Shown one piece after another: positions 1-55,676 of a stretch of DNA of 64,000 nt. Origin of the DNA: Phorcus lineatus (lineage: Eukaryota; Mollusca; Gastropoda; Trochida; Trochidae). How positions within the stretch are numbered: position 1 is the stretch's first letter; each line of letters starts with the position of its first letter. The stretch is from assembly GCA_921293015.1 (NCBI GenBank), contig OV121084.1, positions 26,102,946 to 26,166,945 on the forward strand. Direction: 5' to 3'. The position numbers were made by a program, and so were the translations under genes. The notes under the pieces are model-generated. The model was given only the letters and a program-made list of their open reading frames with translations, had not been told where the DNA came from and searched no databases.

Positions 1-101
1 TGTGCCATGTTAGAGTGATTAGATTATTGTCAGGATTCAATTATCTCCAATACACTCCACATATCTGGCATGAACAATGAGAAGAACATGTCATTCGTAT
101 G

Positions 102-108
102 TATAAAT
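102..108 (+). promoter_or_regulatory. TATA box (TATAAAT), recurring in each unit
   Basis: TATAAAT lies 89 bp before the proposed start codon. An initiator-like CATTA with A at 133 is 31 bp downstream, the canonical distance. The predicted leader 133-190 contains no ATG. The upstream in-frame ATG at 107 is inside this TATA box and so would not be in the mRNA. The same arrangement recurs at every 1,365-bp step (for example 1467-1473). A weaker alternative is that CTTTCTCCAG ending at 154 is a 3' splice site of a longer transcript. Confidence 0.6.
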
Positions 109-190
109 GCAGAGACGATTTCGATGGAGGACATTATCTACCCTAGCTTTCTCCAGCAAACCTGTATTTAGAGATTCGTGCCGATTCAAC

Positions 191-496
191 ATGGAAAAAG
201 TTCAAATGTACGCAGAATTGACTCAGACAGAAACACGTTTCAAACGGGCCTGTGAACAAGTAGTTCTCCTGAATGACAAGCTTGAAGGTCTCCAACGCCG
301 ATATGACAAAGCAAGACAAGAGAATCATCGTTCATTTCGCTACAACCTCCGCCTGAAGATGGCATCTGTTGAAGGCGTACGCAATGCTTACTATGAATAC
401 GCTTGTGAAAAGGCAGAGAGGATTGCCGAGTTGAGGTACTATGTATCTGAAGAAGCCCAGTCCGACTCCGAAGGTGAAGACAGCATGGTGTACTAA
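191..496 (+). CDS. Copy 1: unknown 101-aa coiled-coil protein with acidic tail
   Basis: I do not recognise the family. The ATG at 191 is chosen because it has A at -3 and G at +4, follows an ATG-free leader, and because the in-frame ATG at 107 lies inside the TATA box. Residues 10-41 show an a/d heptad pattern (L10, T13, F17, A20, V24, L27, L31, L34, Y38, A41), so a coiled coil is likely. A second probable helix spans about 56-85 and is rich in Tyr. The tail (86-101) is acidic, with CK2-type sites at S91 and S93. Net charge is near neutral (17 K/R against 19 D/E), unlike core histones or H1. Two Cys (C21, C72) sit in similar ACE[Q/K] contexts, one per helix. There is no signal peptide, membrane segment or zinc motif. 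The gene is apparently intronless and ends with a histone-like stem-loop. Inference: a nuclear, possibly chromatin-related, cell-cycle-regulated protein; function unknown. Confidence 0.65.
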   Translation: MEKVQMYAELTQTETRFKRACEQVVLLNDKLEGLQRRYDKARQENHRSFRYNLRLKMASVEGVRNAYYEYACEKAERIAELRYYVSEEAQSDSEGEDSMVY

Positions 497-526
497 GACA
501 ACCATGCAGTCTTACCATTTTACAAC

Positions 527-542
527 AGCCCTTGTCAGGGCT
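527..542 (+). terminator. Histone-type 3' end stem-loop, recurring in each unit
   Basis: AGCCCT-TGTC-AGGGCT forms a perfect 6-bp stem with a 4-nt loop, starting 30 nt after the stop codon. The metazoan histone mRNA stem-loop is a 6-bp stem with a UYUN loop. Here the second G-C pair and loop U1 and U3, which matter for SLBP binding, are kept. The outer pair is A-U instead of G-C and loop position 2 is G. The flanks (ACAAC before, AAACA after) also resemble histone flanks, so cleavage would be predicted near 547. It recurs in every copy, including truncated copy 11 (15402-15417). Copies 26 and 40 have CT changed to TT at the end of the stem, leaving a G-U wobble pair. Confidence 0.7.
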
Positions 543-552
543 AAACAAATAT

Positions 553-561
553 CAAAAAAGA
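553..561 (+). promoter_or_regulatory. Histone downstream element-like CAAAAAAGA
   Basis: CAAAAAAGA begins 11 nt after the stem-loop and matches the sea-urchin histone downstream element CAAGAAAGA at 8 of 9 positions. In histone pre-mRNAs this element pairs with U7 snRNA. It recurs in every unit. Copies 32 and 36 carry A to T inside it (44097 and 49557). Confidence 0.6.
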
Positions 562-608
562 TTTCTGTTATACAATGCACAATCCCAAACCCTCCGTCTT
601 TGTATGTT

Positions 609-614
609 AATAAA
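609..614 (+). terminator. AATAAA polyadenylation signal, alternative 3' end
   Basis: AATAAA lies 113 nt after the stop codon and downstream of the stem-loop, in every unit. Several animal histone genes carry both signal types, so this could give a polyadenylated alternative transcript. It could also be the only functional signal if the stem-loop is not used. Confidence 0.45.
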
Positions 615-895
615 CTAAAACGCCTACAATTTTGCGTATCTAAACTGGCACAAACAATTGCCCCACAAATATAAACATGCAGAATAGCATACGTGCACAC
701 ACATGGAAACGCACACAAGACAACCCCATGTGCACATCGAAATAGGCATGACATTTGCAAAGCTGCAATGGTCCGGCACATCTGCTTCTCTCGAAACGAT
801 TCTCAATATTACCTAGAACGGAAATCAGAGTTCAGAAAAATCATAAAGAAAACCTCTTGAATATCGAAACCGTTTCTGTAAAAAATCGGGTCACT

Positions 896-904
896 TTTGG
901 CGCC
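896..904 (+). promoter_or_regulatory. E2F-type site TTTGGCGCC, recurring in each unit
   Basis: TTTGGCGC fits the E2F consensus TTTSSCGC exactly. E2F sites drive G1/S transcription, which would agree with the histone-like 3' end. It lies 571 bp before the next TATA box, so it is either distal or belongs to another start site near the CpG-rich segment. Confidence 0.5.
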
Positions 905-938
905 GCTACAGTGATAGCATTGGAGGCTACCGTAGGTA

Positions 939-950
939 CGCGCATGCGTG
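939..950 (+). promoter_or_regulatory. NRF-1-like palindrome CGCGCATGCGTG
   Basis: Matches the NRF-1 consensus YGCGCATGCGCR at 11 of 12 positions and directly abuts the CRE pair. Present in each unit. Binding is inferred from sequence only. Confidence 0.4.
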
Positions 951-973
951 ACGTCGCTATGGTCACGACGTCA
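949..973. promoter_or_regulatory. Mirrored CRE/ATF pair TGACGTCG ... CGACGTCA
   Basis: TGACGTCG (949-956) and its exact reverse complement CGACGTCA (966-973) flank a 9-bp spacer. Each contains the CRE core TGACGT. The pair is present in every unit, with a spacer change (CTATGG to CTAAGG) in copies 28, 30, 31, 34 and 35. Confidence 0.5.
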
Positions 974-1005
974 TTTATCTGTTGATGTCACAGACGATGT
1001 AGCCA

Positions 1006-1031
1006 GTCTCCGGCGAAGCGCCGCCGGAGAC
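1006..1031. repeat. GC-rich hairpin with GCGAAGCG core, recurring in each unit
   Basis: Perfect 10-bp arms GTCTCCGGCG and CGCCGGAGAC around AAGCGC. The whole 26-bp element is conserved in all complete units. Its central GCGAAGCG octamer is also the centre of the unrelated foldback at 14550-14649. It could be a cruciform-prone promoter element, the relic of a small foldback element, or an RNA hairpin. Confidence 0.75.
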
Positions 1032-1271
1032 GGACGTATTTAGGGGAGAGGCCGCCCGCGCGGTTTTGGGCTTATTTGCCGAATTTCCTGACTTCAGATG
1101 ATTTAATTTACCGTTCGTCAATGCATTCCTTCTTGACGCAAATAATCACAATCACACATACAGTTTTACCACATTAATCTAAGTAAACGGATATTAAGCC
1201 GCTGTTCTAAAATGCAAGTTTTGTTAGTCTATATACTTGTGAAAACAGAACCATTTACAACCACATTTGTG

Positions 1272-1279
1272 CCAATCAG
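1272..1279 (+). promoter_or_regulatory. CCAAT box (CCAATCAG)
   Basis: Matches the NF-Y consensus; a second CAATCAG follows 11 bp later. It lies 188 bp before the TATA box of copy 2 and recurs in each unit. CCAAT boxes are common in histone promoters but usually closer to TATA. Confidence 0.45.
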
Positions 1280-1335
1280 TTTTCAATCAGTGTCAGTTAT
1301 CAAGTGTGTTACAATCTCCTATCACTCAGTTATCA

Positions 1336-1342
1336 AAACACA
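1336..1342 (+). promoter_or_regulatory. H1-box-like AAACACA
   Basis: AAACACA sits 125 bp upstream of the TATA box of copy 2. The same heptamer is the H1 box of histone H1 promoters, at a similar distance. It is short, so chance is a real alternative. Recurs in each unit. Confidence 0.3.
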
Positions 1343-1555
1343 GCCGTGGCGGTTCTGCTTATCACTGTGCCATGTTAGAGTGATTAGATTATTGTCAGGA
1401 TTCAATTATCTCCAATACACTCCACATATCTGGCATGAACAATGAGAAGAACATGTCATTCGTATGTATAAATGCAGAGACGATTTCGATGGAGGACATT
1501 ATCTACCCTAGCTTTCTCCAGCAAACCTGTATTTAGAGATTCGTGCCGATTCAAC

Positions 1556-1861
1556 ATGGAAAAAGTTCAAATGTACGCAGAATTGACTCAGACAGAAACA
1601 CGTTTCAAACGGGCCTGTGAACAAGTAGTTCTCCTGAATGACAAGCTTGAAGGTCTCCAACGCCGATATGACAAAGCAAGACAAGAGAATCATCGTTCAT
1701 TTCGCTACAACCTCCGCCTGAAGATGGCATCTGTTGAAGGCGTACGCAATGCTTACTATGAATACGCTTGTGAAAAGGCAGAGAGGATTGCCGAGTTGAG
1801 GTACTATGTATCTGAAGAAGCCCAGTCCGACTCCGAAGGTGAAGACAGCATGGTGTACTAA
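1556..1861 (+). CDS. Copy 2 of the 101-aa gene
   Basis: Protein identical to copy 1. Its spacer carries a private T to A change (CGTCATATATC instead of CGTCATTTATC, near 2340). Confidence 0.65.
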   Translation: MEKVQMYAELTQTETRFKRACEQVVLLNDKLEGLQRRYDKARQENHRSFRYNLRLKMASVEGVRNAYYEYACEKAERIAELRYYVSEEAQSDSEGEDSMVY

Positions 1862-2920
1862 GACAACCATGCAGTCTAACCATTTTACAACAGCCCTTGT
1901 CAGGGCTAAACAAATATCAAAAAAGATTTCTGTTATACAATGCACAATCCCAAACCCTCCGTCTTTGTATGTTAATAAACTAAAACGCCTACAATTTTGC
2001 GTATCTAAACTGGCACAAACAATTGCCCCACAAATATAAACATGCAGAATAGCATACGTGCACACACATGGAAACGCACACAAGACAACCCCATGTGCAC
2101 ATCGAAATAGGCATGACATTTGCAAAGCTGCAATGGTCCGGCACATCTGCTTCTCTCGAAACGATTCTCAATATTACCTAGAACGGAAATCAGAGTTCAG
2201 AAAAATCATAAAGAAAACCTCTTGAATATCGAAACCGTTTCTGTAAAAAATCGGGTCACTTTTGGCGCCGCTACAGTGATAGCATTGGAGGCTACCGTAG
2301 GTACGCGCATGCGTGACGTCGCTATGGTCACGACGTCATATATCTGTTGATGTCACAGACGATGTAGCCAGTCTCCGGCGAAGCGCCGCCGGAGACGGAC
2401 GTATTTAGGGGAGAGGCCGCCCGCGCGGTTTTGGGCTTATTTGCCGAATTTCCTGACTTCAGATGATTTAATTTACCGTTCGTCAATGCATTCCTTCTTG
2501 ACGCAAATAATCACAATCACACATACAGTTTTACCACATTAATCTAAGTAAACGGATATTAAGCCGCTGTTCTAAAATGCAAGTTTTGTTAGTCTATATA
2601 CTTGTGAAAACAGAACCATTTACAACCACATTTGTGCCAATCAGTTTTCAATCAGTGTCAGTTATCAAGTGTGTTACAATCTCCTATCACTCAGTTATCA
2701 AAACACAGCCGTGGCGGTTCTGCTTATCACTGTGCCATGTTAGAGTGATTAGATTATTGTCAGGATTCAATTATCTCCAATACACTCCACATATCTGGCA
2801 TGAACAATGAGAAGAACATGTCATTCGTATGTATAAATGCAGAGACGATTTCGATGGAGGACATTATCTACCCTAGCTTTCTCCAGCAAACCTGTATTTA
2901 GAGATTCGTGCCGATTCAAC

Positions 2921-3226
2921 ATGGAAAAAGTTCAAATGTACGCAGAATTGACTCAGACAGAAACACGTTTCAAACGGGCCTGTGAACAAGTAGTTCTCCT
3001 GAATGACAAGCTTGAAGGTCTCCAACGCCGATATGACAAAGCAAGACAAGAGAATCATCGTTCATTTCGCTACAACCTCCGCCTGAAGATGGCATCTGTT
3101 GAAGGCGTACGCAATGCTTACTATGAATACGCTTGTGAAAAGGCAGAGAGGATTGCCGAGTTGAGGTACTATGTATCTGAAGAAGCCCAGTCCGACTCCG
3201 AAGGTGAAGACAGCATGGTGTACTAA
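2921..3226 (+). CDS. Copy 3 of the 101-aa gene
   Basis: Protein identical to copy 1; 3' stem-loop intact. Confidence 0.65.
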   Translation: MEKVQMYAELTQTETRFKRACEQVVLLNDKLEGLQRRYDKARQENHRSFRYNLRLKMASVEGVRNAYYEYACEKAERIAELRYYVSEEAQSDSEGEDSMVY

Positions 3227-4285
3227 GACAACCATGCAGTCTAACCATTTTACAACAGCCCTTGTCAGGGCTAAACAAATATCAAAAAAGATTTCTGTTA
3301 TACAATGCACAATCCCAAACCCTCCGTCTTTGTATGTTAATAAACTAAAACGCCTACAATTTTGCGTATCTAAACTGGCACAAACAATTGCCCCACAAAT
3401 ATAAACATGCAGAATAGCATACGTGCACACACATGGAAACGCACACAAGACAACCCCATGTGCACATCGAAATAGGCATGACATTTGCAAAGCTGCAATG
3501 GTCCGGCACATCTGCTTCTCTCGAAACGATTCTCAATATTACCTAGAACGGAAATCAGAGTTCAGAAAAATCATAAAGAAAACCTCTTGAATATCGAAAC
3601 CGTTTCTGTAAAAAATCGGGTCACTTTTGGCGCCGCTACAGTGATAGCATTGGAGGCTACCGTAGGTACGCGCATGCGTGACGTCGCTATGGTCACGACG
3701 TCATTTATCTGTTGATGTCACAGACGATGTAGCCAGTCTCCGGCGAAGCGCCGCCGGAGACGGACGTATTTAGGGGAGAGGCCGCCCGCGCGGTTTTGGG
3801 CTTATTTGCCGAATTTCCTGACTTCAGATGATTTAATTTACCGTTCGTCAATGCATTCCTTCTTGACGCAAATAATCACAATCACACATACAGTTTTACC
3901 ACATTAATCTAAGTAAACGGATATTAAGCCGCTGTTCTAAAATGCAAGTTTTGTTAGTCTATATACTTGTGAAAACAGAACCATTTACAACCACATTTGT
4001 GCCAATCAGTTTTCAATCAGTGTCAGTTATCAAGTGTGTTACAATCTCCTATCACTCAGTTATCAAAACACAGCCGTGGCGGTTCTGCTTATCACTGTGC
4101 CATGTTAGAGTGATTAGATTATTGTCAGGATTCAATTATCTCCAATACACTCCACATATCTGGCATGAACAATGAGAAGAACATGTCATTCGTATGTATA
4201 AATGCAGAGACGATTTCGATGGAGGACATTATCTACCCTAGCTTTCTCCAGCAAACCTGTATTTAGAGATTCGTGCCGATTCAAC

Positions 4286-4591
4286 ATGGAAAAAGTTCAA
4301 ATGTACGCAGAATTGACTCAGACAGAAACACGTTTCAAACGGGCCTGTGAACAAGTAGTTCTCCTGAATGACAAGCTTGAAGGTCTCCAACGCCGATATG
4401 ACAAAGCAAGACAAGAGAATCATCGTTCATTTCGCTACAACCTCCGCCTGAAGATGGCATCTGTTGAAGGCGTACGCAATGCTTACTATGAATACGCTTG
4501 TGAAAAGGCAGAGAGGATTGCCGAGTTGAGGTACTATGTATCTGAAGAAGCCCAGTCCGACTCCGAAGGTGAAGACAGCATGGTGTACTAA
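4286..4591 (+). CDS. Copy 4 of the 101-aa gene
   Basis: Protein identical to copy 1; 3' stem-loop intact. Confidence 0.65.
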   Translation: MEKVQMYAELTQTETRFKRACEQVVLLNDKLEGLQRRYDKARQENHRSFRYNLRLKMASVEGVRNAYYEYACEKAERIAELRYYVSEEAQSDSEGEDSMVY

Positions 4592-5650
4592 GACAACCAT
4601 GCAGTCTAACCATTTTACAACAGCCCTTGTCAGGGCTAAACAAATATCAAAAAAGATTTCTGTTATACAATGCACAATCCCAAACCCTCCGTCTTTGTAT
4701 GTTAATAAACTAAAACGCCTACAATTTTGCGTATCTAAACTGGCACAAACAATTGCCCCACAAATATAAACATGCAGAATAGCATACGTGCACACACATG
4801 GAAACGCACACAAGACAACCCCATGTGCACATCGAAATAGGCATGACATTTGCAAAGCTGCAATGGTCCGGCACATCTGCTTCTCTCGAAACGATTCTCA
4901 ATATTACCTAGAACGGAAATCAGAGTTCAGAAAAATCATAAAGAAAACCTCTTGAATATCGAAACCGTTTCTGTAAAAAATCGGGTCACTTTTGGCGCCG
5001 CTACAGTGATAGCATTGGAGGCTACCGTAGGTACGCGCATGCGTGACGTCGCTATGGTCACGACGTCATTTATCTGTTGATGTCACAGACGATGTAGCCA
5101 GTCTCCGGCGAAGCGCCGCCGGAGACGGACGTATTTAGGGGAGAGGCCGCCCGCGCGGTTTTGGGCTTATTTGCCGAATTTCCTGACTTCAGATGATTTA
5201 ATTTACCGTTCGTCAATGCATTCCTTCTTGACGCAAATAATCACAATCACACATACAGTTTTACCACATTAATCTAAGTAAACGGATATTAAGCCGCTGT
5301 TCTAAAATGCAAGTTTTGTTAGTCTATATACTTGTGAAAACAGAACCATTTACAACCACATTTGTGCCAATCAGTTTTCAATCAGTGTCAGTTATCAAGT
5401 GTGTTACAATCTCCTATCACTCAGTTATCAAAACACAGCCGTGGCGGTTCTGCTTATCACTGTGCCATGTTAGAGTGATTAGATTATTGTCAGGATTCAA
5501 TTATCTCCAATACACTCCACATATCTGGCATGAACAATGAGAAGAACATGTCATTCGTATGTATAAATGCAGAGACGATTTCGATGGAGGACATTATCTA
5601 CCCTAGCTTTCTCCAGCAAACCTGTATTTAGAGATTCGTGCCGATTCAAC

Positions 5651-5956
5651 ATGGAAAAAGTTCAAATGTACGCAGAATTGACTCAGACAGAAACACGTTT
5701 CAAACGGGCCTGTGAACAAGTAGTTCTCCTGAATGACAAGCTTGAAGGTCTCCAACGCCGATATGACAAAGCAAGACAAGAGAATCATCGTTCATTTCGC
5801 TACAACCTCCGCCTGAAGATGGCATCTGTTGAAGGCGTACGCAATGCTTACTATGAATACGCTTGTGAAAAGGCAGAGAGGATTGCCGAGTTGAGGTACT
5901 ATGTATCTGAAGGAGCCCAGTCCGACTCCGAAGGTGAAGACAGCATGGTGTACTAA
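5651..5956 (+). CDS. Copy 5 of the 101-aa gene (E88G)
   Basis: One missense change, GAA to GGA at 5912-5914 (E88G), removes an acidic residue at the start of the tail. Not seen in any other copy. Confidence 0.65.
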   Translation: MEKVQMYAELTQTETRFKRACEQVVLLNDKLEGLQRRYDKARQENHRSFRYNLRLKMASVEGVRNAYYEYACEKAERIAELRYYVSEGAQSDSEGEDSMVY

Positions 5957-7015
5957 GACAACCATGCAGTCTAACCATTTTACAACAGCCCTTGTCAGGG
6001 CTAAACAAATATCAAAAAAGATTTCTGTTATACAATGCACAATCCCAAACCCTCCGTCTTTGTATGTTAATAAACTAAAACGCCTACAATTTTGCGTATC
6101 TAAACTGGCACAAACAATTGCCCCACAAATATAAACATGCAGAATAGCATACGTGCACACACATGGAAACGCACACAAGACAACCCCATGTGCACATCGA
6201 AATAGGCATGACATTTGCAAAGCTGCAATGGTCCGGCACATCTGCTTCTCTCGAAACGATTCTCAATATTACCTAGAACGGAAATCAGAGTTCAGAAAAA
6301 TCATAAAGAAAACCTCTTGAATATCGAAACCGTTTCTGTAAAAAATCGGGTCACTTTTGGCGCCGCTACAGTGATAGCATTGGAGGCTACCGTAGGTACG
6401 CGCATGCGTGACGTCGCTATGGTCACGACGTCATTTATCTGTTGATGTCACAGACGATGTAGCCAGTCTCCGGCGAAGCGCCGCCGGAGACGGACGTATT
6501 TAGGGGAGAGGCCGCCCGCGCGGTTTTGGGCTTATTTGCCGAATTTCCTGACTTCAGATGATTTAATTTACCGTTCGTCAATGCATTCCTTCTTGACGCA
6601 AATAATCACAATCACACATACAGTTTTACCACATTAATCTAAGTAAACGGATATTAAGCCGCTGTTCTAAAATGCAAGTTTTGTTAGTCTATATACTTGT
6701 GAAAACAGAACCATTTACAACCACATTTGTGCCAATCAGTTTTCAATCAGTGTCAGTTATCAAGTGTGTTACAATCTCCTATCACTCAGTTATCAAAACA
6801 CAGCCGTGGCGGTTCTGCTTATCACTGTGCCATGTTAGAGTGATTAGATTATTGTCAGGATTCAATTATCTCCAATACACTCCACATATCTGGCATGAAC
6901 AATGAGAAGAACATGTCATTCGTATGTATAAATGCAGAGACGATTTCGATGGAGGACATTATCTACCCTAGCTTTCTCCAGCAAACCTGTATTTAGAGAT
7001 TCGTGCCGATTCAAC

Positions 7016-7321
7016 ATGGAAAAAGTTCAAATGTACGCAGAATTGACTCAGACAGAAACACGTTTCAAACGGGCCTGTGAACAAGTAGTTCTCCTGAATG
7101 ACAAGCTTGAAGGTCTCCAACGCCGATATGACAAAGCAAGACAAGAGAATCATCGTTCATTTCGCTACAACCTCCGCCTGAAGATGGCATCTGTTGAAGG
7201 CGTACGCAATGCTTACTATGAATACGCTTGTGAAAAGGCAGAGAGGATTGCCGAGTTGAGGTACTATGTATCTGAAGAAGCCCAGTCCGACTCCGAAGGT
7301 GAAGACAGCATGGTGTACTAA
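7016..7321 (+). CDS. Copy 6 of the 101-aa gene
   Basis: Protein identical to copy 1; 3' stem-loop intact. Confidence 0.65.
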   Translation: MEKVQMYAELTQTETRFKRACEQVVLLNDKLEGLQRRYDKARQENHRSFRYNLRLKMASVEGVRNAYYEYACEKAERIAELRYYVSEEAQSDSEGEDSMVY

Positions 7322-8380
7322 GACAACCATGCAGTCTAACCATTTTACAACAGCCCTTGTCAGGGCTAAACAAATATCAAAAAAGATTTCTGTTATACAA
7401 TGCACAATCCCAAACCCTCCGTCTTTGTATGTTAATAAACTAAAACGCCTACAATTTTGCGTATCTAAACTGGCACAAACAATTGCCCCACAAATATAAA
7501 CATGCAGAATAGCATACGTGCACACACATGGAAACGCACACAAGACAACCCCATGTGCACATCGAAATAGGCATGACATTTGCAAAGCTGCAATGGTCCG
7601 GCACATCTGCTTCTCTCGAAACGATTCTCAATATTACCTAGAACGGAAATCAGAGTTCAGAAAAATCATAAAGAAAACCTCTTGAATATCGAAACCGTTT
7701 CTGTAAAAAATCGGGTCACTTTTGGCGCCGCTACAGTGATAGCATTGGAGGCTACCGTAGGTACGCGCATGCGTGACGTCGCTATGGTCACGACGTCATT
7801 TATCTGTTGATGTCACAGACGATGTAGCCAGTCTCCGGCGAAGCGCCGCCGGAGACGGACGTATTTAGGGGAGAGGCCGCCCGCGCGGTTTTGGGCTTAT
7901 TTGCCGAATTTCCTGACTTCAGATGATTTAATTTACCGTTCGTCAATGCATTCCTTCTTGACGCAAATAATCACAATCACACATACAGTTTTACCACATT
8001 AATCTAAGTAAACGGATATTAAGCCGCTGTTCTAAAATGCAAGTTTTGTTAGTCTATATACTTGTGAAAACAGAACCATTTACAACCACATTTGTGCCAA
8101 TCAGTTTTCAATCAGTGTCAGTTATCAAGTGTGTTACAATCTCCTATCACTCAGTTATCAAAACACAGCCGTGGCGGTTCTGCTTATCACTGTGCCATGT
8201 TAGAGTGATTAGATTATTGTCAGGATTCAATTATCTCCAATACACTCCACATATCTGGCATGAACAATGAGAAGAACATGTCATTCGTATGTATAAATGC
8301 AGAGACGATTTCGATGGAGGACATTATCTACCCTAGCTTTCTCCAGCAAACCTGTATTTAGAGATTCGTGCCGATTCAAC

Positions 8381-8686
8381 ATGGAAAAAGTTCAAATGTA
8401 CGCAGAATTGACTCAGACAGAAACACGTTTCAAACGGGCCTGTGAACAAGTAGTTCTCCTGAATGACAAGCTTGAAGGTCTCCAACGCCGATATGACAAA
8501 GCAAGACAAGAGAATCATCGTTCATTTCGCTACAACCTCCGCCTGAAGATGGCATCTGTTGAAGGCGTACGCAATGCTTACTATGAATACGCTTGTGAAA
8601 AGGCAGAGAGGATTGCCGAGTTGAGGTACTATGTATCTGAAGAAGCCCAGTCCGACTCCGAAGGTGAAGACAGCATGGTGTACTAA
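8381..8686 (+). CDS. Copy 7 of the 101-aa gene
   Basis: Protein identical to copy 1. Its downstream spacer has a private A to C change near 9358 (TTTTCCCAC for TTTTACCAC). Confidence 0.65.
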   Translation: MEKVQMYAELTQTETRFKRACEQVVLLNDKLEGLQRRYDKARQENHRSFRYNLRLKMASVEGVRNAYYEYACEKAERIAELRYYVSEEAQSDSEGEDSMVY

Positions 8687-9745
8687 GACAACCATGCAGT
8701 CTAACCATTTTACAACAGCCCTTGTCAGGGCTAAACAAATATCAAAAAAGATTTCTGTTATACAATGCACAATCCCAAACCCTCCGTCTTTGTATGTTAA
8801 TAAACTAAAACGCCTACAATTTTGCGTATCTAAACTGGCACAAACAATTGCCCCACAAATATAAACATGCAGAATAGCATACGTGCACACACATGGAAAC
8901 GCACACAAGACAACCCCATGTGCACATCGAAATAGGCATGACATTTGCAAAGCTGCAATGGTCCGGCACATCTGCTTCTCTCGAAACGATTCTCAATATT
9001 ACCTAGAACGGAAATCAGAGTTCAGAAAAATCATAAAGAAAACCTCTTGAATATCGAAACCGTTTCTGTAAAAAATCGGGTCACTTTTGGCGCCGCTACA
9101 GTGATAGCATTGGAGGCTACCGTAGGTACGCGCATGCGTGACGTCGCTATGGTCACGACGTCATTTATCTGTTGATGTCACAGACGATGTAGCCAGTCTC
9201 CGGCGAAGCGCCGCCGGAGACGGACGTATTTAGGGGAGAGGCCGCCCGCGCGGTTTTGGGCTTATTTGCCGAATTTCCTGACTTCAGATGATTTAATTTA
9301 CCGTTCGTCAATGCATTCCTTCTTGACGCAAATAATCACAATCACACATACAGTTTTCCCACATTAATCTAAGTAAACGGATATTAAGCCGCTGTTCTAA
9401 AATGCAAGTTTTGTTAGTCTATATACTTGTGAAAACAGAACCATTTACAACCACATTTGTGCCAATCAGTTTTCAATCAGTGTCAGTTATCAAGTGTGTT
9501 ACAATCTCCTATCACTCAGTTATCAAAACACAGCCGTGGCGGTTCTGCTTATCACTGTGCCATGTTAGAGTGATTAGATTATTGTCAGGATTCAATTATC
9601 TCCAATACACTCCACATATCTGGCATGAACAATGAGAAGAACATGTCATTCGTATGTATAAATGCAGAGACGATTTCGATGGAGGACATTATCTACCCTA
9701 GCTTTCTCCAGCAAACCTGTATTTAGAGATTCGTGCCGATTCAAC

Positions 9746-10051
9746 ATGGAAAAAGTTCAAATGTACGCAGAATTGACTCAGACAGAAACACGTTTCAAAC
9801 GGGCCTGTGAACAAGTAGTTCTCCTGAATGACAAGCTTGAAGGTCTCCAACGCCGATATGACAAAGCAAGACAAGAGAATCATCGTTCATTTCGCTACAA
9901 CCTCCGCCTGAAGATGGCATCTGTTGAAGGCGTACGCAATGCTTACTATGAATACGCTTGTGAAAAGGCAGAGAGGATTGCCGAGTTGAGGTACTATGTA
10001 TCTGAAGAAGCCCAGTCCGACTCCGAAGGTGAAGACAGCATGGTGTACTAA
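9746..10051 (+). CDS. Copy 8 of the 101-aa gene
   Basis: Protein identical to copy 1; 3' stem-loop intact. Confidence 0.65.
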   Translation: MEKVQMYAELTQTETRFKRACEQVVLLNDKLEGLQRRYDKARQENHRSFRYNLRLKMASVEGVRNAYYEYACEKAERIAELRYYVSEEAQSDSEGEDSMVY

Positions 10052-11110
10052 GACAACCATGCAGTCTAACCATTTTACAACAGCCCTTGTCAGGGCTAAA
10101 CAAATATCAAAAAAGATTTCTGTTATACAATGCACAATCCCAAACCCTCCGTCTTTGTATGTTAATAAACTAAAACGCCTACAATTTTGCGTATCTAAAC
10201 TGGCACAAACAATTGCCCCACAAATATAAACATGCAGAATAGCATACGTGCACACACATGGAAACGCACACAAGACAACCCCATGTGCACATCGAAATAG
10301 GCATGACATTTGCAAAGCTGCAATGGTCCGGCACATCTGCTTCTCTCGAAACGATTCTCAATATTACCTAGAACGGAAATCAGAGTTCAGAAAAATCATA
10401 AAGAAAACCTCTTGAATATCGAAACCGTTTCTGTAAAAAATCGGGTCACTTTTGGCGCCGCTACAGTGATAGCATTGGAGGCTACCGTAGGTACGCGCAT
10501 GCGTGACGTCGCTATGGTCACGACGTCATTTATCTGTTGATGTCACAGACGATGTAGCCAGTCTCCGGCGAAGCGCCGCCGGAGACGGACGTATTTAGGG
10601 GAGAGGCCGCCCGCGCGGTTTTGGGCTTATTTGCCGAATTTCCTGACTTCAGATGATTTAATTTACCGTTCGTCAATGCATTCCTTCTTGACGCAAATAA
10701 TCACAATCACACATACAGTTTTACCACATTAATCTAAGTAAACGGATATTAAGCCGCTGTTCTAAAATGCAAGTTTTGTTAGTCTATATACTTGTGAAAA
10801 CAGAACCATTTACAACCACATTTGTGCCAATCAGTTTTCAATCAGTGTCAGTTATCAAGTGTGTTACAATCTCCTATCACTCAGTTATCAAAACACAGCC
10901 GTGGCGGTTCTGCTTATCACTGTGCCATGTTAGAGTGATTAGATTATTGTCAGGATTCAATTATCTCCAATACACTCCACATATCTGGCATGAACAATGA
11001 GAAGAACATGTCATTCGTATGTATAAATGCAGAGACGATTTCGATGGAGGACATTATCTACCCTAGCTTTCTCCAGCAAACCTGTATTTAGAGATTCGTG
11101 CCGATTCAAC

Positions 11111-11416
11111 ATGGAAAAAGTTCAAATGTACGCAGAATTGACTCAGACAGAAACACGTTTCAAACGGGCCTGTGAACAAGTAGTTCTCCTGAATGACAAG
11201 CTTGAAGGTCTCCAACGCCGATATGACAAAGCAAGACAAGAGAATCATCGTTCATTTCGCTACAACCTCCGCCTGAAGATGGCATCTGTTGAAGGCGTAC
11301 GCAATGCTTACTATGAATACGCTTGTGAAAAGGCAGAGAGGATTGCCGAGTTGAGGTACTATGTATCTGAAGAAGCCCAGTCCGACTCCGAAGGTGAAGA
11401 CAGCATGGTGTACTAA
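11111..11416 (+). CDS. Copy 9 of the 101-aa gene
   Basis: Protein identical to copy 1. The following spacer has an extra A in a poly-A run (near 11802) and G to A between the two CRE sites (GCTATAGTC near 11882). Confidence 0.65.
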   Translation: MEKVQMYAELTQTETRFKRACEQVVLLNDKLEGLQRRYDKARQENHRSFRYNLRLKMASVEGVRNAYYEYACEKAERIAELRYYVSEEAQSDSEGEDSMVY

Positions 11417-12476
11417 GACAACCATGCAGTCTAACCATTTTACAACAGCCCTTGTCAGGGCTAAACAAATATCAAAAAAGATTTCTGTTATACAATGCAC
11501 AATCCCAAACCCTCCGTCTTTGTATGTTAATAAACTAAAACGCCTACAATTTTGCGTATCTAAACTGGCACAAACAATTGCCCCACAAATATAAACATGC
11601 AGAATAGCATACGTGCACACACATGGAAACGCACACAAGACAACCCCATGTGCACATCGAAATAGGCATGACATTTGCAAAGCTGCAATGGTCCGGCACA
11701 TCTGCTTCTCTCGAAACGATTCTCAATATTACCTAGAACGGAAATCAGAGTTCAGAAAAATCATAAAGAAAACCTTTTGAATATCGAAACCGTTTCTGTA
11801 AAAAAATCGGGTCACTTTTGGCGCCGCTACAGTGATAGCATTGGAGGCTACCGTAGGTACGCGCATGCGTGACGTCGCTATAGTCACGACGTCATTTATC
11901 TGTTGATGTCACAGACGATGTAGCCAGTCTCCGGCGAAGCGCCGCCGGAGACGGACGTATTTAGGGGAGAGGCCGCCCGCGCGGTTTTGGGCTTATTTGC
12001 CGAATTTCCTGACTTCAGATGATTTAATTTACCGTTCGTCAATGCATTCCTTCTTGACGCAAATAATCACAATCACACATACAGTTTTACCACATTAATC
12101 TAAGTAAACGGATATTAAGCCGCTGTTCTAAAATGCAAGTTTTGTTAGTCTATATACTTGTGAAAACAGAACCATTTACAACCACATTTGTGCCAATCAG
12201 TTTTCAATCAGTGTCAGTTATCAAGTGTGTTACAATCTCCTATCACTCAGTTATCAAAACACAGCCGTGGCGGTTCTGCTTATCACTGTGCCATGTTAGA
12301 GTGATTAGATTATTGTCAGGATTCAATTATCTCCAATACACTCCACATATCTGGCATGAACAATGAGAAGAACATGTCATTCGTATGTATAAATGCAGAG
12401 ACGATTTCGATGGAGGACATTATCTACCCTAGCTTTCTCCAGCAAACCTGTATTTAGAGATTCGTGCCGATTCAAC

Positions 12477-13049: not shown

Positions 13050-13700
13050 ATTTATAAGGAAACTAACTCAAAGCCCCTAAGAGAAAGAAGGGCTGATTCA
13101 AAACTATGTCTCTTTTATAAAATGATCAATAAATTGACTCCCGATTATCTAAGTGATCTTGTGCCTGATTCAGTCAGCCTCAATTCTAATTATAATCTAA
13201 GAAACCAGACAGACCTTCAAAACATACGTTGTAAGACAGAACTATATGCCAGATCATTTATTCCAGACACAATAAGACGCTGGAACGAGCTTCCCGATAA
13301 TATGAAGAAAGCAACTTCATTACATGATTTCAAACTAATGCTACTAAACAAATTGTCATCTCCTCTCCACTTTGATTTTAACTCTGGACCCAGACTCCTA
13401 CAAATTTTACACTGTCGCCTTAGGCTAGGGTTTAGCGATTTAAATGCAGACAAATACAAACGATATATCTTTGATTCACCCGCCTGTTCATGTGGTCACT
13501 CAAACGAAGACGCATTTCACTACTTTTTTACCTGTCCCTGTTACTTATTGCTGAGACCAAACTGTTATTTTTATAAGAAAGGTTTTGATTTAAGAAGTGT
13601 ACTTTTTGGGAACGCAAATAAAGGGAGAGAAATAAACCAGAAAATACTAGAATCTGTACATTACTTTATTCATTCTTCAAAACGATTTAATAACAGTTAA
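13050..13700 (+). pseudogene. C-terminal ~216 residues of a LINE reverse-transcriptase ORF
   Basis: An open frame runs from the first base of the insertion to TAA at 13698-13700. The endonuclease and the reverse-transcriptase catalytic core are missing, so it cannot be active. Features typical of the post-RT region of CR1/L2/Jockey-group LINEs are visible: KLCLFYKMINKLTPDYL near the start, FIPDTIRRWNELP in the middle and a Cys/His cluster CSCGHSNEDAFHYFFTCP near the end. The uninterrupted frame suggests a fairly recent insertion. No genuine start codon lies at its head. Confidence 0.85.
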
Positions 13701-13938
13701 ACTCTTTAAACAACTTACAAGTCTTTTTATAATGATGAATGAACGGCCACATGATTACCAGAATTGTGATATCTTTTAATATATTACATACTAATGATTG
13801 TTTTATAGAACTTTTGTATAAAGATTGCATGCCATTCTCGTGTTATTTCAATTGTTTTTGTATTGTATGGGAGAGGCATTAACATAAGCCATATGGCTTG
13901 TTTGCCGATCCCTTTCATGTAATAAAATATGTTTAAAC
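13050..13938 (+). mobile_element. 5'-truncated LINE (non-LTR retrotransposon) fragment
   Basis: An 889-bp insertion absent from all other units, bounded by 12-bp target-site duplications. It holds the 3' end of a LINE ORF2, a 238-bp 3' UTR and AATAAA at 13921-13926. The 5' truncation and target-site duplications indicate target-primed reverse transcription. There is no poly-A tail; it ends in GTTTAAAC. CR1/L2/Jockey-like affinity is suggested by the ORF's SFIPDTIRRWNELP motif but not proven. Confidence 0.9.
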
Positions 13939-13950: not shown

Positions 13951-14549
13951 TGCAATGGTCCGGCACATCTGCTTCTCTCGAAACGATTCTCAATATTACC
14001 TAGAACGGAAATCAGAGTTCAGAAAAATCATAAAGAAAACCTCTTGAATATCGAAACCGTTTCTGTAAAAAATCGGGTCACTTTTGGCGCCGCTACAGTG
14101 ATAGCATTGGAGGCTACCGTAGGTACGCGCATGCGTGACGTCGCTATGGTCACGACGTCATTTATCTGTTGATGTCACAGACGATGTAGCCAGTCTCCGG
14201 CGAAGCGCCGCCGGAGACGGACGTATTTAGGGGAGAGGCCGCCCGCGCGGTTTTGGGCTTATTTTCCGAATTTCCTGACTTCAGATGATTTAATTTACCG
14301 TTCGTCAATGCATTCCTTCTTGACGCAAATAATCACAATCACACATACAGTTTTACCACATTAATCTAAGTAAACGGATATTAAGCCGCTGTTCTAAAAT
14401 GCAAGTTTTGTTAGTCTATATACTTGTGAAAACAGAACCATTTACAACCACATTTGTGCCAATCAGTTTTCAATCAGTGTCAGTTATCAAGTGTGTTACA
14501 ATCTCCTATCACTCAGTTATCAAAACACAGCCGTGGCGGTTCTGTTAAG

Positions 14550-14649
14550 GATAACATACAAGTAACCGTACATTCGTGAAAAAGAATGTACGAGCCGCGA
14601 AGCGGCGAGGACATTGTTTTCACGAATGTACGGTTACGAGTATGTTATC
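14550..14649. repeat. 100-nt foldback (inverted repeat), MITE-like
   Basis: GATAACATAC (14550-14559) pairs with GTATGTTATC (14640-14649). After a 2-nt mismatch, 21 perfectly complementary bases pair (14562-14582 with 14617-14637). Next come AATGT/ACATT and a central GCCGC-GAA-GCGGC hairpin (14594-14606). Nearly the whole element folds into one stem. TTAA occurs just outside both ends (14545-14548, 14654-14657), which could be a TTAA target duplication, but four bases in AT-rich DNA are weak evidence. Confidence 0.85.
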
Positions 14650-14811
14650 TGACTTAAAATACAGCCTAGTTTAAAGTTTTTTTTGTATGACCTGCTTTGG
14701 TTTATGATAATAACATTCGTATTTCATTGCATAATTATAACACAAAAAACGTTTTTCAATAAAACAAAATCCTTTAACAAAATTTGAGATGGTCCCAACT
14801 GGTTCACCGGT
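14650..14811. other. AT-rich stretch, no gene recognised
   Basis: About 160 bp between the foldback and the 39-bp repeats, with T- and A-runs and one AATAAA at about 14759. That signal could be the 3' end of something truncated on the left, but no coding sequence leads into it. Confidence 0.5.
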
Positions 14812-14977
14812 CATTCTTAATGCACGTGCAACGTAACCATCTTGCCGGTACATTCTTAATGCACGTGCAACGTTACCATTTCGCCAGTACATTCTTAATG
14901 CACGTGCAATGTAACCATCTAACTAGTACATTCTTAATGCACGTGCAACGTTACCAGCTTAATTCACGTGCAAGACG
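14812..14977. repeat. 39-bp tandem repeats carrying E-box palindromes
   Basis: Three full 39-bp copies start at 14812, 14851 and 14890; a fourth, partial copy starts at 14929 and a degenerate fifth at 14958. Each begins CATTCTTAATGCACGTGCAA. The first four contain the perfect 10-bp palindrome TGCACGTGCA (14821, 14860, 14899, 14938) and the fifth has CACGTG at 14965. CACGTG is the E-box bound by bHLH factors such as Myc/Max and USF. The cluster ends 30 bp before a TATA box, so it is a plausible promoter array. Confidence 0.85.
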
Positions 14978-15006
14978 TTTGAAACCGCAATCAGCTTGGG
15001 ATTTGG

Positions 15007-15014
15007 TATAAAAG
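15007..15014 (+). promoter_or_regulatory. TATA box of the foreign segment (TATAAAAG)
   Basis: A consensus TATA box directly downstream of the E-box repeats and 37 bp before the first ATG of the 57-codon ORF. Transcription would start at about 15032-15041, leaving only a very short leader before the first ATG. Confidence 0.6.
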
Positions 15015-15043
15015 GAAGGTGGTCTTAATTCAACTTAGACATT

Positions 15044-15217
15044 ATGTATGGCAATTTTGTTGTTGAGTGGGAAGACATGGCCGAGTATCCACACTTCGAA
15101 GACATTTCTTCAGAGGATGATGTTGTGTTATCAAATAATGAAATCAGTTCCCTTCCGGGGACCATCTCAAAATTATTATTGCTCAATTGTCCACATAGAA
15201 GCAGTAGATTCTTGTAG
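15044..15217 (+). CDS. Small acidic ORF (57 codons) of the foreign segment, unknown
   Basis: ATG at 15044, TAG at 15215-15217. The N-terminal half is acidic (EWED, FEDISSEDD) and the C-terminal part is Leu- then Arg/Ser-rich. Start choice is uncertain: Met12 at 15077 has a stronger Kozak context (G at -3, G at +4) and a more realistic leader, giving 46 residues. An overlapping frame from ATG 15048 (61 codons) is less protein-like. The ORF may be the first exon of a gene whose remainder was lost at the 15264 junction. No similarity to the array protein and no recognised family. Confidence 0.35.
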   Translation: MYGNFVVEWEDMAEYPHFEDISSEDDVVLSNNEISSLPGTISKLLLLNCPHRSSRFL

Positions 15218-15264
15218 GATAATGTATGATTGAAACAATACAATGACGTCACTGCTGTATTTTA

Positions 15265-51728: not shown

Positions 51729-51772
51729 TGCAAGACAGGAGGCGGAGCAACACTGACTGGTCCAGTTATTAG

Positions 51773-54700
51773 GCCAGTTGCGCGTTTTGGAACGTTTCGG
51801 GGTGGGCAGGTGACACTATAAGTGACAATAATCAACTTCGAACGCATTGTATTGAATCTCTTGATGTTGACATTTTAGGTGTAGCTGAGACCCATTTAGT
51901 TGGTGAAAATGTTTTAAAACTTGATGATTATACATGGTTTGGACACAACCGCATCAACCTGCATCGAAATGCAAGAAAAGGCTCTGGAGGTGTCGGTTTT
52001 TTAATAAAGAATAAACTTTTAGAGATTTTTAATGTGTGTGTATTAGATAAAACACATGAAGGTATAATGTGGGTGAAACTGACGCATAAAGTGTTAACAA
52101 CCTCTGTGTATACATTCTGCGTGTGCTATTTAACACCAGAACACTCTACAAGAAATGTGGATGCAGCGGACTTTTTTGACACGTTACTATCACAGATTTA
52201 CCAGTATCGTGATTTAAACATTGTATATATTTGTGGGGATTTTAATAGCAGATGTGGTGGTTTAATGGATTTTATTGAAGGTGTTGATGTTCTATCTTTT
52301 AGAAATGTCGTTGACAATGTTGTGAATAACCATGGCCGTATGTTTATTGACTTTTTAATCAATGCTAATTTGTGTTTAGTAAATGGGCGATGTGGACAAG
52401 ATGATTTCACATTTGTCTCGACAAGGGGCGTGTCAGTGGTGGACTACCTCATGTGTTATTATGAGAATATAAATACTTTTCAAGATTTCAGAGTGACCCG
52501 GCCGAGTGAACTTGTGGATAATTTAAATCTAGTAGGGGTGGTCGATGTCGAGGCAGTTTCTAAGCTTGACCATTCAGTGCTCACATGGTATATAGAGCTC
52601 GGTATGTGCGGTAAGACTTTATGTGACGTCACAGGGACGAGCGATAGTACCCCGAGTAGATATATTTTTAGAAGTGATTTTACAAATGTACCTTGTGATT
52701 TTATGGCGGACCCAACATGTGTTCAGATTCTCGAAGACACTATCCAGAAGATGGAGGCATCACACGGGAACCAAAATCATGTTGATGTAGCTTTTAATGA
52801 CTTTGTAAGGATTGTTAAGGGACAAATGCAAGATAAGCTACCCACACGTCGTGTACCTATGGATTCTTGTCGGAGTAACAAGCAGAGACGAACCAAGAAA
52901 GCCTGGTGGAATAAAGAGCTAACCAGTATGTGGAACGATTTATGTTTAGCAGAAAGGGACTGGTGTAAATGTAAAGGCTCAAATAAGAATGAACTTAAAC
53001 ATGTATATCTACATAGAAGAAGAGTGTTTGATCGTCAAGTGAAAAAGACAAAGCGTCAACATGTGAAGGATACATTGAACCGACTAGAGGATCTGTGTGA
53101 GAAGAGTAGCGGGGAATTCTGGAAGGAGATCGGTCTCATAGGGGTTGGTGCTGAAAGAAAGAAGAAGATTCCAATGGAAGTAAGACTTGATGACGACTCA
53201 GTCTCGTCGGACACAGACACAGTCCTCAGTACATGGAGGGACGCATACTCCACACTTCTTAACAGTAACAACGCTGAACCTATGGATGACGTCAGTCCCC
53301 GGAATGACGTCACAGATCGGAGTCCTTTGAACACAGAAATAACTATGGAGGAGGTGCAGCGTGCGCTGGTACAGGCCAAAAGGGGAAAAGCCACTGGATA
53401 TGATGAAATACCCGTTGAAGTTTTAAAGAATATTTCCTGTCTTAACTTTTTACATCGTCTTTTTAATACTTGTTTTACTTTGGGAAAAGTACCAGCGGAA
53501 TGGAGGAAAGGAATCATCAACCCAATACCTAAATCGTCTACTGATGACCCAAGGGACCCCCTGTCGTATAGAGGAATAACACTTACCAGCTCCACCTACA
53601 AGTTGTATTGCAGTGTGCTGAACGCCAGACTAAGTTCTTACTCCGAACTTCACAACATCCTAGCGGACGAACAGAATGGCTTCCGGGCGAAGAGGTCGAC
53701 AATAGAACACGTCTACACACTAACTTCTATTATTGAAACCAGGAAGAGTATAGGGAAAGAGACTTTTACTGCTTTTATCGATTTTAAAAAGGCTTATGAT
53801 TGTATAGACAGAAGAATTATGTGGAATAAGCTTCATAATATTGGTATACGTGGCAGCATGTTCAGTGCTTTGTTGTCTCTGTATGACTCTGTCCGGTGCT
53901 GTGTTCGGCTTAATGGTCTCACAACAGAATGGTTTGGTGTGAACTGTGGTTTGAGACAAGGATGCCTTTTATCCCCCCTTCTTTTTAACCTGTTCTTAAA
54001 TGACCTGATTGATGAAGTAAATACTCTCAACATCGGTGTGCAAGTGGATGGTGAGTCTATAAGTATTCTTGCGTATGCAGACGACGTTGTGCTTCTGGCT
54101 GATACTGAAGAAGATTTAAACACGTTGTTGGAGACTCTGAGTTGTTGGTGTCTAAATAATAAGATGACGGTGAATCCAACGAAGTCCAAGATTATGCACT
54201 TCCGAAAGCCTGGAGCCGATAAAACATCAAGCACGTTCATGTGTGGAGACATGGAGCTGGATACTGTTGAGTCGTACACTTATCTTGGCCTTCTCCTCAC
54301 AGACTCGCTCGACTACACTAGGATGGGGAAAGCTGCCACGAACTCCGCAAGTCGAGCTCTAGGACTCCTCATCTCGAAGTTCAAGATCTTAGGAGGAATG
54401 GGCTATGAAACCTACTCCAAATTATATGACAGTATGGTATGGCCCACTATTTCGTATGGATCGGCAGTCTGGGGACCGTATGCACTACCGGCTGTTAAGG
54501 CGCTCCAAAACAGAGCTATGCGGTTTTTTATTGGACTGTATAAGTACTCTCCGAACTCAGCGGTTGCCGGCGACATGGCATGGATTCCACCTTGTGTGCG
54601 ACAGTGGGACAACATCGGCAGACTGTATAAACGTATGTGCGGTATTAACCCCAACAGAGTCTTATCAAAGGTTTTCAAGTGGGCAAATAAAAATGCGGAA

Positions 54701-55306
54701 CAACACAAAAACAATTGGAATAAGAGAGTTCACACGAAAATGAAAAAGCTGAATCTTCAACATTTCATTCCCACAGAGAATATGTTCCATGTCAGCTTTA
54801 TATCAGCAGAGATTCGAACCAAGGTGTTGGACAACTTCGTGAACGACTGGCAGAAGGACCTATCACGACAAACAAGCAAACGAGGGGATGGTGGCAATAA
54901 ACTTAGATTTTATAGAACTTTTAAATCGTCTTTTAAACCAGAGAGATATGTCACTGCGAACGTACCAAGGAGTCACAGAAGAGCACTGGGTAGATTCCGC
55001 TGCGGCACCGCTCCTCTTCGTATTGAGATTGGTCGCTACACCAACACACCGCTAGATGAGAAGAAGTGCTTTAACTGCCCTGGCGATGTCGAGGATGAGA
55101 CACATGCTCTACTTCACTGCCCTCTATATTCTGATTATCGTTTAGTTTTATTTAATCAGTGTTATAAGGCAAATGCAAATTTTAGCAATTTTACTGATGT
55201 ACAAAAACTGTGTTTTATTATGTCATGCCCTGATGTTGTATTTATAACTGCCAAAACGTGCAAACTTATTTTACAGAGAAGGACTCTTTTACAGTTTAAC
55301 AAATAA
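51773..55306 (+). CDS. LINE polyprotein: APE endonuclease and reverse transcriptase
   Basis: The frame is open from 51773 (after TAG at 51770-51772) to TAA at 55304-55306. The first ATG is at 52034, but endonuclease motifs begin upstream (WNVSG at 51788, VAETH near 51881-51895), so the native start was lost or lies outside the insert. Endonuclease motifs continue with GDFN at 52235-52246, VVDYL near 52440 and LDHS at 52565-52576. The reverse transcriptase shows FIDFKKAYD (catalytic Asp 53780-53782), LRQGCLLSPLLFN near 53950 and YADD at 54074-54085, then YTYLGLLL. A C-terminal C-x2-C-x8-H-x4-C cluster lies at 55067-55120. No RNase H domain is apparent. It nicks target DNA and copies its own RNA there. 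All catalytic motifs look intact; translation would need an upstream or non-AUG start, or Met at 52034, which loses the first endonuclease motifs. Confidence 0.93.
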   Translation, partial: ASCAFWNVSGWAGDTISDNNQLRTHCIESLDVDILGVAETHLVGENVLKLDDYTWFGHNRINLHRNARKGSGGVGFLIKNKLLEIFNVCVLDKTHEGIMWVKLTHKVLTTSVYTFCVCYLTPEHSTRNVDAADFFDTLLSQIYQYRDLNIVYICGDFNSRCGGLMDFIEGVDVLSFRNVVDNVVNNHGRMFIDFLINANLCLVNGRCGQDDFTFVSTRGVSVVDYLMCYYENINTFQDFRVTRPSELVDNLNLVGVVDVEAVSKLDHSVLTWYIELGMCGKTLCDVTGTSDSTPSRYIFRSDFTNVPCDFMADPTCVQILEDTIQKMEASHGNQNHVDVAFNDFVRIVKGQMQDKLPTRRVPMDSCRSNKQRRTKKAWWNKELTSMWNDLCLAERDWCKCKGSNKNELKHVYLHRRRVFDRQVKKTKRQHVKDTLNRLEDLCEKSSGEFWKEIGLIGVGAERKKKIPMEVRLDDDSVSSDTDTVLSTWRDAYSTLLNSNNAEPMDDVSPRNDVTDRSPLNTEITMEEVQRALVQAKRGKATGYDEIPVEVLKNISCLNFLHRLFNTCFTLGKVPAEWRKGIINPIPKSSTDDPRDPLSYRGITLTSSTYKLYCSVLNARLSSYSELHNILADEQNGFRAKRSTIEHVYTLTSIIETRKSIGKETFTAFIDFKKAYDCIDRRIMWNKLHNIGIRGSMFSALLSLYDSVRCCVRLNGLTTEWFGVNCGLRQGCLLSPLLFNLFLNDLIDEVNTLNIGVQVDGESISILAYADDVVLLADTEEDLNTLLETLSCWCLNNKMTVNPTKSKIMHFRKPGADKTSSTFMCGDMELDTVESYTYLGLLLTDSLDYTRMGKAATNSASRALGLLISKFKILGGMGYETYSKLYDSMVWPTISYGSAVWGPYALPAVKALQNRAMRFFIGLYKYSPNSAVAGDMAWIPPCVRQWDNIGRLYKRMCGINPNRVLSKVFKWANKNAEQHKNNWNKRVHTKMKKLNLQHFIPTENMFHVSFISAEIRTKVLDNFVNDWQKDLSRQTSKRGDGGNKLRFYRTFKSSFKPERYVTANVPRSHRRALGRFRCGTAPLRIEIGRYTNTPLDEKKCFNCPGDVEDETHALLHCPLYSDYRLVLFNQCYKANANFSNFTDVQKLCFIMSCPDVVFITAKTCKLILQRRTLLQFNK

Positions 55307-55477
55307 TTTAATTTTTACTTCTGTGTGCTTTTGCGCAAGTTGTTTTATGTATATATTTAGTCTCTCATAACCCATTTATGGGTGGCTCACTTTTTTTTAC
55401 ATTTTTATACTAATACCTTTGTATTTTATGTAAACATTTGAGGTGAGACTTTAATAAATAATCTGTCTGTCTGTCTG
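55307..55477 (+). other. LINE 3' UTR with AATAAA and CTGT tail
   Basis: AT-rich 3' region. It contains the inverted pair CCCAT/ATGGG (CATAACCCATTTATGGGTGG, about 55368-55387), AATAAA at 55453-55458 and a terminal CTGT repeat. A short 3' hairpin and microsatellite tail are common LINE features recognised by the element's own reverse transcriptase. Confidence 0.7.
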
Positions 55478-55484
55478 GCTTATC
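55478..55484. repeat. Target-site duplication, right (GCTTATC)
   Basis: Second copy of the 7-bp target; normal array sequence resumes with ACTGTGCC. Confidence 0.85.
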
Positions 55485-55676
55485 ACTGTGCCGTGTTAGA
55501 GTGATTAGATTATTGTCAGGATTCAATTATCTCCAATACACTCCACATATCTGGCATGAACAATGAGAAGAACATGTCATTCGTATGTATAAATGCAGAG
55601 ACGATTTCGATGGAGGACATTATCTACCCTAGCTTTCTCCAGCAAACCTGTATTTAGAGATTCGTGCCGATTCAAC

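Follow-up and report, generated by a model that had tools for sequence, protein, structure and literature searches.

The 64-kb window, meaning the whole stretch of DNA that we analyzed, carries a tandem array on the + strand with a period of 1,365 bp, as determined by self-comparison and start-site spacing. In the unit at positions 1-1365, a TATAAA that is likely the core promoter (102-107, +) lies 89 nt 5' of the start codon of an intronless open reading frame (ORF) of 101 aa (191-496, +), delineated by translation and structure prediction. The stop codon is followed by a histone-type stem-loop with a 6-bp stem and a UGUC loop, AGCCCUUGUCAGGGCU (527-542, +), supported by sub-threshold Rfam matches, by a model of histone 3' ends that we call R1, and by alignment; by a 10-nt spacer, AAACAAATAT (543-552, +), and a purine-rich element, CAAAAAAGA (553-561, +), both placed from the sequence and from alignment with histones; and by a CAATGC block (573-578, +) that is common to histone 3' ends of the same genome. 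An AATAAA farther downstream (609-614, +), located from the sequence, is a possible back-up poly(A) signal. A previous sequence-only reading of this DNA had described a 6-bp stem and 4-nt loop 30 nt past the stop codon in every copy, which we confirmed, with 43 of 43 array 3' ends matching R1. It had also placed a downstream element 11 nt later; the element is present at 553-561, although the spacer is actually 10 nt long. The CAATGC block is an addition to that reading, and its AATGC is invariant in 8 of 8 histone 3' ends.

Among the 43 start sites in the window, 40 open the 101-aa frame, 2 open a frame of 71 aa, and the remaining one runs off the end of the window. The copies are nearly identical within the window, so we treat the array here as one observation and look to diverged arrays elsewhere in the genome for independent support of the 3' module. 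Deviating 3' ends comprise two with CAAATAAGA and two with an altered 3' arm, AGGGTT. The array is interrupted at about 13050-13938, 14548-15264, and 51729-55486 of the window. The interruption at 51729-55486 is a non-LTR retrotransposon-like insert in one array unit, with a 1,090-aa open frame that is reverse-transcriptase-like by look. One of the other two insertions is a 219-aa ORF fragment resembling a retroelement end, and the other is a stretch that contains a 39-bp minisatellite (14812-14960) and a TATA-like sequence of its own and that abuts a truncated unit. The spacer of the unit also holds a GC-rich inverted repeat, GTCTCCGGCG / CGCCGGAGAC, with a 6-nt loop (window positions 1006-1031), near TGACGTC-like sites and a second TATTTA.

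AlphaFold, given 73 sequences, predicts the 101-aa protein to be a two-helix hairpin (helices 2-43 and 47-96, pLDDT 90.9). Residues 1-86 have a pI of 9.2 and a net charge of +4, and the tail is acidic. The protein had been described as not a recognizable histone, and our searches agree: there were zero Pfam matches above cut-off, and the two predicted helices do not form a histone fold. The best Pfam matches, ZapB and Uso1_p115_C (E 0.11), were both below cut-off, and of the 611 matches that a Foldseek search against the PDB gave at E<=10, none reached E<=0.001, with generic helical hairpins at the top. On the Pfam, AlphaFold, and Foldseek results, we rejected a hidden histone or other known domain.

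A profile search found 534 proteins at E<=0.01 among 7,989 candidates scored, 120 of them listed. The matches listed include named relatives from Mya arenaria and Patella caerulea as well as protein clusters with many members on one contig (P0097 with 135, P0105 with 102, and the Mya cluster P0104 with 27). We found zero confirmed relatives in viral_contigs, genome_contigs, and phage records, and rejected a viral or bacterial origin of the gene. In the genome itself (958 Mb, 74 contigs), we searched with two family proteins, for which there were 425 and 523 candidates; 150 scored matches were listed for each, and the two lists have one place, on C5, in common, which gives at least 299 distinct family places, on contigs C2, C5, C7, C11, C16, C25, C39, and C41. 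The suggestion of a multicopy orphan family thus holds for copy number and fails for orphan status, since the annotated protein relatives come from molluscs, one nemertean, and one annelid. An uncharacterized lophotrochozoan family (with, for example, Mya arenaria MAR_017281, Patella caerulea SNE40_011378 and SNE40_012698, Tubulanus polymorphus LOC141898434) shares the FRYxLRL...EGVRNxYYEYA core and the acidic tail, and Patella has, by protein, both a multicopy type and a longer single-copy type. These relatives were compared by protein alone, and the module was observed in the Phorcus lineatus genome alone.

We scored the 3' module with both a general and a genome-specific model. At gathering score, no Rfam family matched anywhere in the 64-kb window. 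At E<=5 in bases 1-12000, nine of nine rows were Histone3 (RF00032) at 22.8 bits, E 0.013, and full model length; they sit at the array stem-loops, and this was the sole Rfam family matched. The window element therefore falls below the RF00032 gathering cut-off (22.8 versus 34 bits), a result that the sequence-only reading had listed as counting against it. Other family loci also score under 34 bits (26.1, 23.3, and 22.2 in one set; 22.8, 21.1, 18.1, and 17.7 in another), while the core histones of the same genome score 33.6-37.4 bits and the ends of loci L012, L015, and L019 38.8-40.3 bits. The sub-threshold score formally counts against the module, but the genome's own H2B, at 33.6 bits, is also under the cut-off, and R1 separates the array clearly.

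R1 was built on eight of this genome's histone 3' ends and on zero family members: H2A, H2B, H3, and H4 (C13), H1 (C2), L012, L019, and L015. By Pfam, L012 and L019 are further linker histones. L015 (C5:42930613) is a very basic 115-aa ORF with no Pfam match and a strong histone-type end (Rfam 39.6 bits), which we take to be protamine-like and count among the histones. R1 E-values are rough, and our argument rests on bit scores. At E<=10, R1 found 44 matches in the window: 39 at 46.9 bits, 2 at 42.1, 2 at 37.8, and 1 at 15.1. Matches 1-43 are the array 3' ends and the 44th lies outside them. The comparison with this species' own histone genes, proposed earlier as a check, thus comes out in favor of the module, with the window ends at 37.8-46.9 bits under a histone-only model and the next match at 15.1, which puts the ends over 20 bits above background in the window.

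The layout is that of metazoan replication-dependent histone genes, which are likewise intronless and tandem, with a stem-loop 30 nt past the stop codon and a purine-rich element about 10 nt beyond it. Here, CAAAAAAGA resembles the downstream element CAAAAAAGAAAACTT of the genome's own H4 and agrees with the histones in the alignments and in R1, and the H1, H2A, H2B, H3, and H4 genes of this genome have the same CAATGC block as the array family. Searched alone by blastn against the histone genes, the module matched L012 (E 8.9e-9), H1 (E 9e-6), and L019 (E 2.5e-5). The array reads AAACA up to position 547, with CA at 546-547, 4-5 nt past the stem. According to an excerpt of PMC6303110, cleavage of histone pre-mRNA takes place at CA, 5 nt past the stem, and by that comparison CA at 546-547 is the putative cleavage position. 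The family differs from histones in that its protein lacks the histone fold and its genes are located outside this genome's histone arrays.

Further support comes from the other arrays of the family. The C7, C16, C25, C39, and C41 types are closely related; the C11 genes and the C2 array, whose period is 1,540 bp, have diverged. In an R1 scan of 32 of 75 loci, selected by us, the arrays on C7 (26.78 Mb), C16, C25, and C41 scored 34.1-52.9 bits and the best non-module match 15.7. R1 scores were 46.6 bits for C2, 61.0 and 58.9 for C11, and 45.6 for C39, against a background maximum of 13.2. The C2 stem-loop is AGCUCUUCUCAGAGCU and that of C11 is AGCCCUUUUCAGGGCU, and the same downstream blocks follow in both, the downstream element of C11a being CAAAAAAGAAAACTT.

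In an alignment of 10 family and 8 histone sequences, each of the 108 stem cells is paired and three of the six stem pairs change on both sides; slid controls were at most 63% paired, with zero double changes. Two of the double-sided changes distinguish the family from the histones or one histone from another, and the third (C-G to U-A) falls inside the family, where the C2 array has the stem AGCUCU/AGAGCU in place of AGCCCU/AGGGCU. An SLBP-type element has G-C as its second stem pair and U at loop positions 1 and 3. The earlier claim that these features are present was borne out in 18 of 18 sequences for both the G-C pair and the two loop U's. The two acknowledged weak points, an A-U outer pair and a G in the loop, now carry much less weight. 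All 10 family sequences have A-U at the outer pair, where all 8 histone sequences have G-C, and the G in the loop characterizes one subfamily, since the C2 array has UCUC and the two C11 genes, C11a and C11b, have UUUC. The C2 and C11 loops fit the histone loop consensus UYUN, from which the C7-type arrays, with UGUC or (in C16a) UAUC, depart.

The module persists where surrounding sequence does not. At E<=0.01, blastn of the C7 unit against the C11 genes returned two pieces each, the coding region and 527-579 or 525-579, the module pieces having E 9e-8 and 1.4e-8. Against the C2 unit, only 190-586 aligned, as a single gapped piece that spans coding region and module. Between the C7 unit and the C2 or C11 loci, promoters and spacers have lost alignable similarity. 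Over 68 core codons, dN is 0.083 for C7-C2 and 0.066 for C7-C11a, with synonymous changes saturated beyond estimation; C2-C11a has dN 0.097 and dS 2.03, and C7 versus C39, C16a, and C41 has dN 0 and dS 0.07-0.18. Low dN at saturated synonymous sites indicates strong purifying selection on the protein, and together with the blastn results it indicates that the module is retained at distances where neutral sites are lost.

A single-copy paralog on C5 encodes 132 aa with a long acidic tail. At E<=0.01, blastn of the C7 unit against it aligned the coding part only, and in flanks of up to 1,500 nt we found no Histone3 match at E<=1 (L072, L076) and no R1 match at E<=10. TATA-like sequences occur 5' of the C7, C2, and C11 genes and none 5' of the paralog, a weak comparison because the same patterns also miss H1. 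The paralog has 133 protein relatives, 120 of them listed; among the matches listed, the closest include Patella caerulea SNE40_012698 (76%) and a Littorina saxatilis protein (76%), and others come from Tubulanus polymorphus, Lamellibrachia satsuma, Mytilus galloprovincialis, Tegillarca granosa, Dreissena polymorpha, and Mactra antiquata. Replacement histones are likewise single-copy and lack a stem-loop, and we infer that the multicopy/single-copy split parallels that between replication-dependent and replacement histones.

The genome's core-histone unit, with H2A, H2B, H3, and H4, is on C13, and H1 shares a tandem unit of about 3 kb with 5S rRNA at L041 (C2:65720001-65726000). The C2 H1/5S region holds 60 of the 75 Histone3 matches obtained, and on C5, C7, C9, and C13 there are core histone arrays about 40 kb or less from a contig end. 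An AATGC block about 30 nt past the stem-loop was seen at L012, L013, L015, L019, L041, and L075 and does not vary among the eight histone ends; it may extend the region that pairs with U7. The SLBP RNA-binding domain is encoded on C13 in two exon pieces (51.1 and 39.6 bits, cut-off 27). For U7 snRNA, RF00066 gave 18 weak matches at E<=10, none over cut-off (best 25.0 bits, E 1.21), and the ten loci inspected included no convincing U7. For histone mRNAs of the bivalve Lucina, an excerpt of PMC6210712 describes the palindrome as present and purine-rich elements as detected for some only.

Non-histone genes or elements with histone-type ends may be wider in this genome. Five of 12 dispersed Histone3 matches examined (L011 on C39, L014 and L021 on C25, L016 on C29, L018 on C2) lie 3' of an ORF family of about 260-400 aa, in two pieces in L014, with R1 scores of 56.7-66.9 bits; L014 also has a second, weaker histone-type module at 612-673 (-), at 42.3 bits. 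This ORF family had no match in Pfam, the PDB, or viral_contigs, and searches gave zero support to a capsid-like look of the 400-aa ORF. Histone-type ends at L013 (C16) and L017 (C32), at 68.9 and 72.4 bits, lie 3' of a Cys-rich acidic ORF of about 200-240 aa for which Pfam gave nothing above cut-off. The stem-loops of L020 and L022 are strong as well (67.1 and 63.2), and the six-frame lists of these two loci contain no Cys-rich ORF.

We conclude, with a probability of roughly 0.8, that the array belongs to a lophotrochozoan non-histone family of replication-dependent type that uses the histone mRNA 3'-end pathway, the central claim of the earlier reading, which sequence and comparison support. 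Judged on these comparisons, no part of the module is missing, and it evolves as an RNA element would. That the hairpin arose by chance, or is a DNA-level repeat feature without RNA function, we consider highly improbable: the Rfam score under the gathering cut-off would fit, but the histone-only model places the array ends far above background, three or four blocks are collinear, and the stem shows a compensatory change. It is somewhat less improbable, and still very doubtful, that a histone 3' end was recently recombined into one unit and then amplified as a functionless passenger for this protein. The closeness of the module to the ends of H1 and H1-like genes by blastn and the near identity of the window copies are what such a capture would leave, but the module also occurs in subfamilies that have reached synonymous saturation and no longer share alignable promoters or spacers, and its stem covaries.

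A more serious alternative, though one we regard as unlikely, keeps the module as real and histone-derived but has most transcripts polyadenylated at the downstream AATAAA, uncoupled from S phase, with the stem-loop active in certain cells only, for instance in oocytes or the early embryo. Polyadenylation is possible given the AATAAA downstream of the window stem-loop, the C2 array too has an AATAAA past the module, and dual 3' ends are known for human H2A.X, according to an excerpt of PMC7807067. H3 and H4 of the same genome also have AATAAA downstream of their stem-loops, an observation that bears both ways: the genome's own histone genes share the arrangement, so the AATAAA does not set the family apart. 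In addition, the C11 genes L081 and L082 keep the module with no AATAAA within 200 nt past the stop codon.

Under the replication-dependent reading, the pre-mRNA of the intronless gene would carry an SLBP-type stem-loop, a purine-rich U7-type element, and the CAATGC block, and SLBP and the U7 snRNP would most likely cut it about 5 nt past the stem, near base 547. The resulting mRNA would be non-polyadenylated and limited to S phase, and the many tandem copies would allow large amounts of a small helical-hairpin protein, basic in its core and acidic in its tail, to be made in a short time. The family probably serves S-phase supply. In the most speculative part of our interpretation, the product is probably an abundant chromatin or histone-handling protein, a role that a basic helical core with an acidic tail would suit.

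In our searches of open-licence PMC papers, we found no report of such a non-histone family. As a broader proposal, to which we give somewhat less than even odds, histones would not be the sole metazoan proteins made from replication-dependent stem-loop mRNAs: in lophotrochozoans, a non-histone product would stand beside them as a second class, namely an abundant chromatin protein encoded by hundreds of tandem genes and accompanied by a single-copy replication-independent variant, and the stem-loop class in this genome would also take in other non-histone genes. Conservation of the entire module in a non-histone family would suggest that a further protein is supplied in step with DNA replication. 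The family would provide a natural test of the requirements of SLBP and U7, and of whether S-phase coupling evolves by need, as for a bulk chromatin protein, or by histone descent.
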